64,000 nucleotides of DNA, taken from Ascidia mentula. Taxonomy: Eukaryota > Chordata > Ascidiacea > Phlebobranchia > Ascidiidae. Shown here in pieces: positions 27,801 to 33,800 of this stretch. The stretch is taken from positions 4,283,001-4,347,000 of the forward strand of contig OX387204.1 in the NCBI GenBank assembly GCA_947561715.1, read 5' to 3'. Below the pieces are notes generated by a model. That model worked only from the letters and a program-made list of their open reading frames with translations, did not search any database and was not told the origin of the DNA. The stretch's first letter is position 1, and every line of letters begins with the position of its first letter. Made by a program: the position numbers and the translations under genes.

Positions 27801-30800
27801 AACCTGTTGGAAATTTTGAAGTTATTTGGGTAACTCGTATTTCTATTGTAACATATTTGTTGGTAGTTATATCCATAGCAATTAACACTTTTTTAAAATT
27901 ACTTTGTTTACTTCAGATCAACTACACATGTAAAGAAAACACAGAAACGAAATCTGTTACTGATGTCTCCCCTTTAGACAGACTAACACCTGGTTGCAAC
28001 TACACAATTGAAGTAAATGTGGAGAGCAATGGACTTTTTAGTGCCCTCGAACAAAACCTAATTACAATGCGTAAGTTTGTTTAATGTGCAAACATTAGGC
28101 TTGTAAAAAATGTAATAATTCAGCAATGCCAGATTGCACTAAGCTGTTATCTTTATATAGCTGTCTTACCATTGTCTTTTTTTTTAGTTGGCTTTAATTA
28201 TTTTTACATAGTCTATTGCAGTGGTCCTTAACCTTTGATCGATGTAGCACCTTTTTTTGCACAAACCCCCGATTTTGATTTAGTCACATAATTCAGCCTA
28301 ACCTAAAGATTCAGCTACCCCACACCCTCTTGAAAAATCCAATTTATTATTTTTTTATTGCTATGTTTTTTTTAAAAAAAATTGACATACTGTAGTGCAG
28401 CTTGCTTTGCTCATGTTGTTTTCTGCTTGGTTTCAGAACCACACCAGCCACAATTTACAGTGGTACCTGCACCTTCAAATATTACAATCAACGTTGCTGA
28501 TACAATAAATGTTGTTGATTATTATGAGTACAATTTGGAGGAAATGACTGACAATGGAACAAAGGTACAGTCAAATTGCTTAAAACATCGTTACTTGTTA
28601 ATTTCAAGGGGACTATGATTGTTTTGGCTTTCAGGAAATGGTTCCAACTTTGAAACTTACCCACACATTTGTTGACCTAAAACCTCATACAAACTACACA
28701 CTCTCAGTGCTTTCTATTGTTTATGGCTTTGGTGGAATACTAAAAAGCAAATTTGCACCATCATTAAACAGCACATTATCTACGGGTAGGGTGGAGTATT
28801 AATATAAATAGTAATATAAATTTGTTTTTGAAACTTGTGCTGCTAAATACTTTAATATCTCTGACGTTTTTTTGCTTTTTTTACAGTTCCTTTTGGAAAC
28901 TTTGGTGTAACTGATCTTAACCAGCAAACAGGTTCCTCACCAAACACAATCGTGTTTCAATTGGCTGGAGGCACGTTTAATGATAAAAACGGCCCTGTAA
29001 CAGAATTTGTCATTTTTCTTTCGCAACCTGGAAAGATAGGTTCGTTTTTGCACTTTTGTGCTTGCTAAAACACCCGTTTTATCAGTGACATTAACAAAGT
29101 AATTGCCCTCCAAATATTGCGTTTGGTTTCCCAGTGAAGTTTTTGGATTTTGAACATTTTTTTCTGATAAAATTACCCCAGATGCTGGTGCAACTGCTCC
29201 GGATCTGAACATCCTAGAAACTTGTGATGTGTTTGCTAATGGTGCAGCTAAACAATGTGTTTCTTTGATAACCACTGGGTCAGGAAAGCCGATGACAGCT
29301 TCTGCAAGGAAGAAAAGGAGTTTTGACAATCCAGTTTATAACCCTCCAATCTCGGTAGGAAATCATGATCTGCTGAACAGTTGAAGCTAAACGAAAAAAA
29401 AACAAGTTTATTCCTAAAAAAAACAGTATTTTTTACCCAAATTGCAACATGTTGCTCTTTCTATCAACAGTTCACAATTGGAAGTCTTGAAAAGACTCAG
29501 TCATCTTACACTCGCAGCAATACTGTGTACAACAACAAAGGTCTGGCAGCAGACACTGCTTACATAGTAGCTGTTGCTGCCAGAACAGCTGACTCTACCC
29601 TTGTATCCACTAATTGGTCCCAACCCATACGAACCAGTAAGTCGCAAACATGATCTACAAAAATATGTGGAATGTTTTCTATATCAGGGAAGTAAATTTA
29701 ATCGTTTTATCTGTATGTATTTAATTTTGCAGAGGTGGATCCAGGTCTTGTGGCTGGTCTGACAGTAATGTGCATTATAATTGTTATTATGCTTATTGCT
29801 GGATTTGTTTTCTACAAGCGGAGAAGAAGAGCGAATAAGAAAGATGAGTAAGTGTAGTAACATGATATGATGTTGTTGTTAATAATTACATTTTTTTGCT
29901 AAGTTGCAAATTTTGTGCAACTTTTGCAATTGTTTTGTAGACAGTTTGTGTAACTTTTTCAATACTCTACTTGCAGGAAACTGGCTTTCCCCCTTGTTGC
30001 GAAAAAGTAAACGCATTTTGTGCATTTCAGTTTGCCCGAAACTGCATTACCTTTCTTTTTAAATTCCATTTTTGTTTTATGTTTATACACCCAAACCTGC
30101 CACCATTACCAATGCAATAACATGAATTTTTTTTAATTTCCTCACTTTACGTTGTACTAAAATCACAGGCAGAATGGAGCGACAGTTTATGCAAATGATC
30201 CAGCTGTTCAATTAGAAAAAAGAAGGTTTGGATTTTTATGATTTATTTCCATAACTTGCACCAATCTGTCTTCAAATAGTTGTTTTTCAAATTTTCGCAC
30301 AAATGTTTTGTTCACTAAAACATTAACAAAAGTGCCTTTGGTTAAATACAGCATTAGGAAAAACCAAAAATATTTTTGTTCCTTCACAGTCTTTAGTTTA
30401 TTTTACTTTCAGTTACATTTCAGAAACTCAAAACCTAATTTATATTTTAAACTTTTCTTCACAATTTTCGTATACATAAATGTTACATCAGAACCATGTA
30501 TTGCATATATTTCATCATTAACATTCAGTATTTTTATTACAGAAGCGAGACCCGGTAAGTAATGTTGCTTCAAACATTTTTTGTGCCTCAATCTGTATTT
30601 GTTGCCTGTCAGAATTTTTTCAGCCACAAATAATTCACATAGTTTTTTTATGATCGCAATAGAGTTTCAACTTAAGCAAACAGGTGCTGTTAAACATTAC
30701 ATAAGTTCCATATCGCACGCAGTGCAGTGCGTAAAGCCACCTGGGATTGTAAATTCCAAAAACTAATCTTACTTAGCATGTACAAAAAATACGTGCGGTT

Positions 30801-33800
30801 TAGGCCGATTGCACTTGAAGGGTTTATAGCCAAGTTTCCAAACCTTGAAGACGAAGAAGTAGAAGAACACCTGTCTAAAGAATACGCGGTTCGTGATTAG
30901 CACGACGACCGGTGTTTAGTTTATTTCCCGCCTTTATTTCGCTCGTGTGCGTTATGTTTTAAAACCTAATCAGGTGATTCATCTTTTTGTTTCCTTCCCA
31001 ATCAAGAGTGGTCCGGATAGCTGATTTCAACAGTGCGATGACTCGATTACGCGCCGATTCTGGTTTTAAGTTCTCTGAGGAATACGAGGTTCCAACACTG
31101 ATTTTCTGCCTTTGTTTTTTTTTTACTCCTAATGGAAATGTTATAATGTTTATATTTTGTTTGACTCTTTGTGTTGAAAGTGCATGTGGTACGACTCTTT
31201 ATTTGCATGTGCAAACGTACTTTTGGATTGGTGTATTTTTAATATGGCGGACAGGTAAAATGGCGGACTGACAATCTGCATTTGGTTTACATTTTGGCAC
31301 GTGGACACATATTTTGCCCAGCATTACTTTTGTTTTTATGTTGGCTTGCTGCTTACTACACAACACATGCACTTTCAACGGCTAATTTTGCCCCGTATGA
31401 CTTAAGTCCAACAAAAGTTTTTGTTGAATCGCAGGAGTTTAAGCCTGTGGGTCGGGAACAATCGACCAATTCCGCTCTCCTTCCTGAAAACCGAGGCAAG
31501 AATCGTTACACCAACATTCTACCCTGTAAGTAGACCGCCAATACACGTTACAGTTGTGTAAAAACCACAAACAATTGTCCCTGTCACACAGGTTCCAGGA
31601 TTTAGGCAGACAAAGACAGACGTTCATGACGAACTTGGTTAGATTTGAGATCAGGATAAAACATAAACAATACAAGCGGAAGTTACGTACTGAAGTCAGA
31701 AAACACGTCAGACGTGTTCTTGGTTTGTTGAGTCAGGATTTGTTGACTTGTAAATCACCGACGAGAAGTGACTCTCAGTAGCCAGAGAATGACTAATCCA
31801 ACCTAAAGGTAGATTGTATTCCAGTGAGAAGCCATAATGACACGATTCACAAACAAATTATATGCATCGCTACTCTTGAAAAGGTGATGTTCAGGTGCCT
31901 AACCCTTCACCAATGTTCATCCATTGACTTGCTTTTTATAGCAAACGAATGAAGCTCGCCCTTCTAAGGGGATGACGTCACCATATATAGTTTTCCCCAT
32001 ACCATGGGTAATAATGTTGAGCTGTTGACAATATGTTGTGTTACAGATGACAACACCCGTGTGAAACTGCATGCTGTCGATGACGAACCCGGCTCCGATT
32101 ACATCAACGCAAATTACATTCCGGTAAGCGTGTTTGTGAATTGCATCGCGTGTGGTGCGCGCAATGTTTTGATCAACATATGTTTGCCAGTGTTTGCGGT
32201 TTTGATTGTTGTGACTGTTACTGACAGCAACCTCAATGAGAAACTGATTTAAACCAAAAGTCAACCGATTTTCCCACATTCTAAACGAAGCAATTAGTCC
32301 CAGGGAACGACGCTAAACTGGCAAATCACAACAAATTGCGCTTTCTTTTTTTGTCGTTCGAAAACCCAACACTAGATCGAAAACCCAACACTAGATCGAT
32401 AACAAACCATGAGCAGCAAGAACGTGTGTCGTCTGTTAAAGCTCTTCGTTAATTTACATTTAATATCGAGTACCGACAACCTATGTTTTGTAAGGCGATA
32501 CTACTGGGCGGGGGACTATTTGCGTTTATGGGAACGACACGCGATACCAAAGGTCGCGCCCAAAAGCGAAAGCGATTGCACGGCTTGTGTGCTCTTTGAC
32601 GCCTACCGACGCGAATTAGCTGCTCCCAAAATAGCTTGTCGTCAAGTCAACGCGAATAACTCCACGAAAAGATATATTTTCATTGTGTAACAAAACGGTT
32701 TCTTTGTTGAAATCGACGCCCATGACCGACGGGATTTTCCAACAGCATGTTGTACATAGTGTTTATCAGCATTACAACAACCTGAAAAAAACGCATCCCA
32801 CATCAACGTCTAATACGTCTGCATATGTAAAGTAAATCCTTGGGTTCTGCTAGAGTCAAACCATGCACGGAATATACCATAGGCAAGCTTATGCTAATGG
32901 TGACGAGAAATGTCGTTTCACCCGGAAATGTTCAGCATTATACACGCAAAATGGTGGCGATTATTCGTTACATGTTGAAGTTGAAACACCTTTTAAACAG
33001 AATTTTAAAAATTGTCTGAAATGAGCGTGAACGTGAGTTTTCAGAGTTATTTGACGTAAAATGAAATGTCTGCTTATATGTCGCTAGATTTAAAACTGCC
33101 ATCAAATTACACCTCAAACGTAGTACACAGTTACTCAGCTAAAGTATACCTCATAAAACTTCAGGACGTGATATGCGCCGTGTTAAACACACATAGTCGA
33201 TCTCTGCTTTATTATCCCCTACAACTAAACGGTGTGTTTTGGTCACGTTTCCAGGGCAACCAAAACAAGCGGGAGTATGTTGCGACCCAGGGACCATTGC
33301 CCGGCACCAAGGAAGATTTCTGGCGCATGTGCTGGGAACAGAACACCCGGAACATCATCATGGTTACACAGACCGTTGAAAGAGGTGAGGGAAAGGTTTC
33401 TTCCACCATACGCCCTACAAACTACTTTCATTTTGTCCGTTTGCTTCTGAGCTTTCAAAACTTTAGGGCCTTTGTTAATCGTGTGTTGCGTCAACTCCAT
33501 ACAAACATTAATCTTTTTAGTACGAAACAATGACACCACTTTCGTTATTATGTGTACACAGTCTGCGTTCCTCGGCTAAGATAGCCAGGCCTGTCTTCCG
33601 CCAATTGTTTGTTTCAATGGAAATTGACTGCGCCGCACAAGAACGAAACGAAAACAAAAATCCCGTCATAATTGCGGTTCTGCTAATATCACTTCTATTA
33701 AAAAAACCATGGATTTTTAAAATCTCGCGTAATCCATACACAAAACGTACAAAGACGATTTGTGAATGTTTCCACAGCTTTTTTACCTTTAAACTCCCGT

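Follow-up and report, generated by a model that had tools for sequence, protein, structure and literature searches.

A putative tandem-duplicated pair of mutually exclusive wedge exons in a PTPRB-like receptor phosphatase gene of the ascidian Ascidia mentula

The stretch analyzed here (the window) comprises 64,000 nucleotides of Ascidia mentula DNA, positions 4283001-4347000 of contig OX387204.1 (contig C72 in our numbering), and the evidence is the DNA of this one genome. The sequence supports the presence in the window of a PTPRB-like receptor protein tyrosine phosphatase (RPTP) gene of the R3 type. The exon bounds of the gene model were set by hand from reading frame and splice sites. The predicted protein has an ectodomain of FN3 domains, one transmembrane segment (judged by inspection), a single protein tyrosine phosphatase (PTP) domain and a short tail. 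Just ahead of the catalytic core lie two adjacent candidate exons, A and B, which may encode two versions of the helix-turn-helix wedge. The parts of the gene around this pair are listed below with positions in the window.

29733-29847, + strand, transmembrane exon, recognized by inspection
30169-30225, + strand, first juxtamembrane exon of the gene model
30543-30554, + strand, frame-neutral juxtamembrane microexon of 12 nt (A AGC GAG ACC CG), upstream of the exon pair
30777-30803, + strand, in-frame 5' extension of exon A, 27 nt (MYKKYVRFR), with an intron-like codon score (-0.28) and an AG just 11 nt from the CTAAT box
30804-30888, + strand, exon A as revised here, 85 nt, PTP10D-like wedge, net charge -5, placed by frame, CTAAT box, codon usage, wedge alignment and register with exon B
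31007-31088, + strand, exon B, 82 nt, canonical RPTP wedge, net charge 0, found by a wedge hidden Markov model (HMM) at E 1.8e-5 among 9,514 fragments
31435-31525, + strand, common downstream exon of the gene model, start of the catalytic domain (EFKPVGREQ...NILP)
32047-36706, + strand, rest of the catalytic-domain exons, then the C-terminal exon; stop codon at 36704-36706

The microexon leaves the transcript in phase 2 (after CG). Exon A, started at either 30777 or 30804, and exon B each supply one base, end in phase 0 and join exon 31435-31525 in frame. Translation bore out the initial annotation of exon B as an 82-nt exon (31007-31088) with a length of 1 mod 3, as well as its proposal that exactly one exon of the pair can be used. 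Transcripts with A alone (112 or 85 nt) or B alone kept an open frame as far as the stop codon, whether the microexon was included or left out. Inclusion of both exons created a stop at 31022-31024, inside exon B and 64 nt ahead of its end, for the 112-nt and the 85-nt forms of A alike, and omission of both created a stop in exon 32047-32123. Transcripts with both exons or neither would be expected to undergo nonsense-mediated decay, since the early stops lie upstream of further exon junctions. According to codon and splice-site models trained on 25 hand-drawn exons of the same gene, the splice sites of the microexon are near-ideal (acceptor 11.7, donor 12.7, its own sequence being within the training set). 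Skipping of this frame-neutral microexon would leave the frame intact.

Exon A had initially been annotated as 30777-30888. This 112-nt reading is open and in phase, but an acceptor at 30804 fits better and reduces the exon to 85 nt. The in-frame AG 27 nt past 30776 gives a peptide beginning R-PIALEGF, which is in position-by-position register with R-VVRIADF of exon B and RPILIKNF of PTP10D. Both exons are preceded by a CTAAT box, the presumed branch point, at the same distance:

30763-30767, + strand, CTAAT box preceding 30804 by 38 nt (exon A)
30966-30970, + strand, CTAAT box preceding 31007 by 38 nt (exon B), at a distance of 203 nt from the first box

The first of these boxes lies only 11 nt from 30777. 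Of the 3,214 AGs in the window, 10 have a CTAAY word exactly 38 nt upstream. The codon score was +0.137 bits per codon for 30805-30888 and +0.130 for exon B, compared with -0.281 for 30778-30804 and a mean of -0.25 for open intron windows; one of the 524 overlapping open intron windows matched the score of exon A. Because branch distance, codon usage and register with exon B all disfavour 30777, a start at 30804 was preferred. The acceptor of exon A is thus likely to be 30803/30804 rather than 30776/30777, although 30777 may be used as a minor acceptor, and the extension 30777-30803 is probably intron, or else marks a rare alternative acceptor or alternative start. A third in-frame start of exon A lies at 30723.

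The two exons also resemble each other in nucleotide sequence at their 3' ends, where a 19-nt segment is duplicated:

30874-30892, + strand, first copy of exon end plus donor, 84% identical to the second at a spacing of 200
31074-31092, + strand, second copy of exon end plus donor, 84% identical to the first

The last 15 coding and first four intron bases of exons A and B, 200 nt apart, match at 16 of 19 positions. Among 560 offsets, 200 was clearly the best for exon end plus donor (17/21 over 30872-30892, the next reaching 13), and 203 was narrowly the best for the branch box (10/13, the next reaching 9). The 3-base gap between these offsets fits the insertion or deletion of one codon. The exons share their phases and stand in register at both ends (offsets 203 and 200), as expected of a mutually exclusive pair, and only 5 of 2000 shuffles scored as high as the comparison of the two encoded peptides. 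This sequence pattern is most simply read as the tandem duplication of an exon along with the signals for its splicing. The initial annotation had described a common type of peptide motif at the end of both exons and the same weak donor. Both exons do end in EY(A/E) followed by GTTC, but their donors are not equally weak: that of exon A (GTTCGT) scores 6.3, mid-range among the 25 presumed constitutive donors of the gene (1.7-12.3), and that of exon B (GTTCCA) scores 1.0, under all 25. The word GTTCGT also closes the presumed constitutive exon 28887-29039.

In the window and in 20 phosphatase loci, all open AG...GT intervals of compatible phase were compared with the wedges of six PDB phosphatases by donor-anchored alignment (9,680 distinct reads from 215,020 bases, in one phase class). 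Eighteen of the 9,680 reads had wedge scores of at least 30, and all came from wedge loci: three are nested reads of exon A, and the others lie in exon B, L034, L035 and L044. The other 9,662 reads scored at most 29, and the best read outside wedge loci scored 29. Exon A scored 30 with PTPRB and 26 with PTP10D, both of the R3 type, and its own shuffles reached 30 in 10 of 5000 trials. Alignment of exon A to PDB wedges was obtained in the context of the catalytic core as well as with the donor anchored, and exon B aligned too. The idea of two wedge versions at this locus is thereby retained, with an exon A of 85 nt in place of the 112 nt (37 residues) first proposed. Exon A is probably not a chance open frame, judging from these sequence comparisons.

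In the phase class scanned, no second wedge-like exon was detected in the 20 paralogous loci fetched (L033-L052). A wedge was recognized in four of them (L033, L034, L035 and L044, with HMM E values of 5e-5 to 0.053), and a fifth, weak match in L049 (E 0.048) was judged spurious. At E 10 exon A matched this gene alone, and the introns flanking the pair had no second match in the genome in a search that skips simple repeats and very common words. Many of the PTP-domain matches listed were concentrated at C2:4.18-6.32 Mb and C72:16.9-17.4 Mb, suggesting tandem expansion of PTP genes. Two loci, L038 (C69:6843127-6843831) and L039 (C72:12483611-12484333), carry nearly complete PTP domains in single frames of 458 and 1020 amino acids with no interrupting stops and are perhaps retrocopies.

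Several results weigh against reading exons A and B as a working pair. The acceptor of exon A is poor and two or three AGs are possible, scoring -2.4 (30777), -0.8 (30804) and -1.2 (30723) in a gene whose 25 other sites range from -2.9 to 11.7. Just 2 of the 25 other acceptors carry CTAAY within 70 nt upstream, and for this reason CTAAY is not established as a branch consensus here. Exon A scores low with the R3 member PTPRJ (13) and with PTPRS (11), LAR (8) and PTPRM (2). The wedge HMM misses it at E 50, and phmmer found no match at E 10 with its peptide plus short flanks. Its codon score is partly a matter of composition, frame +2 of the same exon, with three stops, scoring 0.12. Finally, exons A and B agree at only about 6 of 28 residues, so that the duplication must be old.

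Taking both sides together, we consider it fairly probable that exons A and B are anciently tandem-duplicated wedge exons of this PTPRB-like R3 phosphatase, of which one would be used per transcript, with exclusivity enforced by the reading frame and the choice probably made by trans-acting factors at weak sites. It is rather unlikely that exon A is instead a relic of the duplication, open by chance and never or almost never spliced in, with exon B constitutive. Such a relic would fit the poor acceptor (-0.8), which lacks a good polypyrimidine tract, and the absence from exon A of the ADS turn, which exon B shares with PTPRB, PTP10D and PTPRJ; an open frame of 28 codons is also weak evidence by itself. 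On the other hand, exon A has diverged to about 6 shared residues in 28 and still retains its frame, a donor of 6.3, a CTAAT box at 38 nt, coding-like codons and wedge residues of PTPRB and PTP10D. A donor under all 25 others of the gene would moreover be unexpected if exon B were constitutive.

The 112-nt form of exon A (30777-30888) could also be an alternative first exon, used after leader trans-splicing or from an internal promoter to produce a soluble phosphatase. An ATG stands one base past the AG at 30776, and genes for a Ciona-type spliced leader are present in the genome: 1,830 exact copies of the leader followed by GT were counted in 196 Mb, and none of the reversed control. The leader is of a type known from tunicates. 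Mouse Ptpro transcripts that start in an intron, and catalytic-only forms of several RPTPs, are described in published work (PMC1431701). The AG at 30776, however, is merely 11 nt from the CTAAT box, the codons of the extension are intron-like, and agreement in phase with the exon upstream would have arisen by coincidence (about 1 in 3 by our estimate), which together make a first exon improbable. The spliced-leader genes form a tandem array, mostly at a spacing of 719-720 bp, that extends at least over C1:15239664-15315846.

Exclusivity had at first been attributed to steric interference across the 118-nt gap between exons A and B. This was not sustained. The same gene model contains seven introns of 63, 70, 85, 87, 96, 101 and 116 nt, so that a 118-nt gap does not bar joint splicing, and 80 nt separate the donor of exon A from the presumed branch-point adenosine of exon B (30969). 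A human exon survey sets its steric criterion at <50 nt, a distance it reports for 57 clusters (9%) (PMC5740500, seen in part), and steric exclusion was rejected on these grounds. Under the reading preferred here, exclusivity would come from the reading frame, not from spacing. The same observations, early stops in transcripts with both exons and with neither, and a 118-nt interval that should splice in this gene, could be explained by dose control, in which there is one working wedge exon and joint inclusion or skipping deliberately sends transcripts to decay. Exon-joining reads are given for 83 of 377 human clusters of mutually exclusive exons (MXEs) with non-triplet lengths (PMC5740500, available text). 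Dose control leaves the wedge-like coding of exon A unexplained, and we give it little weight. An intronic frame left open by chance is a very improbable account of exon A: about 20 phase-compatible open intervals are expected per 880 nt (9,747 intervals in 215,020 bases, two strands), its shuffles reach the score at the rate given above and the best outside read falls barely below 30, but no read outside wedge loci attains that score, and chance would account neither for the register with exon B at both ends nor for the coding-like codon usage.

If exons A and B are indeed alternatives, the weakest donor of the gene at B, the ordinary donor of A and the poor acceptor of A leave room for regulation. 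The intron downstream of exon B contains the following elements:

31173-31188, + strand, left arm of a perfect 16-bp inverted repeat, intronic, holding a TGCATG (31181)
31204-31209, + strand, second TGCATG (RBFOX-type), 116 nt past exon B
31364-31379, + strand, right arm of the inverted repeat; the adjoining CTAAT box (31382) precedes the common exon

Measured from the end of exon B, the two TGCATG sites are 93 and 116 nt further downstream, and the word occurs 20 times in the 64-kb window. The 16-bp stem was matched in none of 60 shuffles. The two UGCAUG motifs and the stem might act as an RBFOX-type switch towards B. Against a role of the stem, there are eight perfect inverted repeats of at least 16 nt in 215 kb, this one included, and the fold of the downstream intron is unremarkable (z -1.0), 17 of 100 shuffles folding equally well. 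Control by RNA structure would call for one docking site with a competing selector for each exon, and among the inverted repeats found no clear set of this kind was seen. RBFOX control of the choice between A and B is put forward as a hypothesis only. A 19-nt direct repeat (84%) at 31311-31329 and 31385-31403 was also observed near the acceptor of the common catalytic exon.

The remainder of the gene agrees with its assignment as a receptor phosphatase. Two of the four FN3-region exons submitted (26725-26991 and 24818-25072) passed the Pfam fn3 cut-off, and the remaining two are partial domains that score under it. The WPD loop is intact (WPDHGVP in exon 35247-35404), as is the 10-residue PTP signature, which spans exons 35247-35404 and 35585-35720, and the C-terminal exon 36485-36706 encodes two YxN motifs (VYENT and IYENT). 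Human PTPRB was the top one-stretch match of the spliced domain in the PDB, with 396 bits; by summed score the two-domain LAR, PTPRS and PTPRA chains outranked it. In the comparison of the juxtamembrane-plus-core part PTPRB was outright first. A possible frame-neutral cassette exon of 30 nt (29977-30006; acceptor 4.8, donor 1.0) lies in the intron after the transmembrane exon and would add 10 juxtamembrane residues. Upstream of the modelled exons, at about 11000-17000 of the window, a direct repeat unit of about 1,050 bp recurs almost unchanged at offsets of 1055, 2102 and 3157, with up to 200 of 200 bases identical, which we read as a recent tandem amplification.

The gene resembles Ciona_1 and the vertebrate R3 member PTPRB in its FN3 ectodomain, single PTP domain and YxN tail, as these are presented in the available part of a comparative study (PMC5336234). 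In the same source the Ciona locus has orthologues of BEST3 and CNOT2 nearby (PMC5336234), whereas in A. mentula matches to these two families lie about 3 and 8-12 Mb off, so that only shared-chromosome synteny applies. All 27 bestrophin matches listed and all three NOT2_3_5_C matches listed, counted at the level of the family, are on the contig of the gene, 3-12 Mb from it. The PDB ranking and this synteny make it likely that the gene is orthologous to PTPRB. The text available of the comparative study mentions no alternative wedge exon for Ciona_1 or PTPRB (PMC5336234).

Splicing that alters the wedge is already known from mouse Ptprz1, an RPTP of the R5 subtype. Exon 16 of that gene, like the present pair, changes the helix-turn-helix wedge of an RPTP, but it is a 7-residue include-or-skip cassette in the D1 wedge of another subtype and not one of two homologous exons (PMC11215419, partial text). 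Mutually exclusive exons occur in many genes. Human MXE clusters likewise consist of adjacent exclusive exons, and in 377 (60%) of them non-triplet exons would make joint inclusion non-functional; human PTPRS, again of another RPTP subtype, has an MXE cluster reported absent from Afrotheria (both from the accessible part of PMC5740500). The genes Mapk14, Mapk9 and Mapk10 resemble the pair in that mutually exclusive exons vary the catalytic unit of a phosphoregulator, and differ from it in being kinases whose swapped segment lies inside the catalytic domain (PMC1431701, in part). Within the portion of the open-access literature that was searched, mutually exclusive wedge exons were seen for no RPTP, nor was a pair exchanging the whole wedge. 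Neither PMC9741552 nor PMC9013439 contained the phosphatase terms looked for.

The two predicted wedges differ in charge and in the turn. Exon B has the usual ADS...FSEEYE turn and a net charge of 0. Exon A has eight acidic residues and a net charge of -5, is one residue longer (the junction R counted) and is without the ADS turn found in exon B, PTPRB, PTP10D and PTPRJ; the other five wedges in the charge comparison range from -1 to -3. For the isolated exon A peptide (the 37-residue read including the extension, run with no alignment), AlphaFold2 predicted helices at 10-19 and 25-36, with FPNLE between them (mean predicted local distance difference test, pLDDT, 73; predicted template modelling score, pTM, 0.37). 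The model lends weak support to the view that exon A can still form a wedge, one whose first helix ends early, at the proline. On the other side, the isolated exon B peptide, with intron-coded ends and again no alignment, gave one helix only, at 6-20 (mean pLDDT 81, pTM <0.4). In the predicted isoform A the proline should shorten the first helix, and the acidic variant may alter how the wedge packs against a catalytic domain, be it that of the same molecule or of a partner.

The regulatory role of the wedge has been disputed since the structure of RPTP-alpha, from which the inhibitory-wedge dimer model originated. A large survey of crystal structures and solution behaviour spoke against a general inhibitory-wedge dimer and found the helix-turn-helix conserved (PMC2638020), a review calls the use of the wedge domain controversial (PMC7959691), and structural results on the rat homologue of PTPRJ have been taken to back the wedge model (PMC9701752); each is cited from the portion of text available. 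Tentatively, and with more doubt than attaches to the exon pair itself, we suggest that ascidian R3 phosphatases may use regulated mutually exclusive splicing to alternate a canonical, near-neutral wedge with an acidic one, so that proteins with the same ectodomain and core would differ in self-association, activity or partner binding. If this is true, variation of the R3 wedge would have evolved by exon duplication, beside the cassette form of Ptprz1, and two isoforms differing in the wedge alone, in a chordate open to genetics, would allow the contested wedge model to be tested on natural variants.

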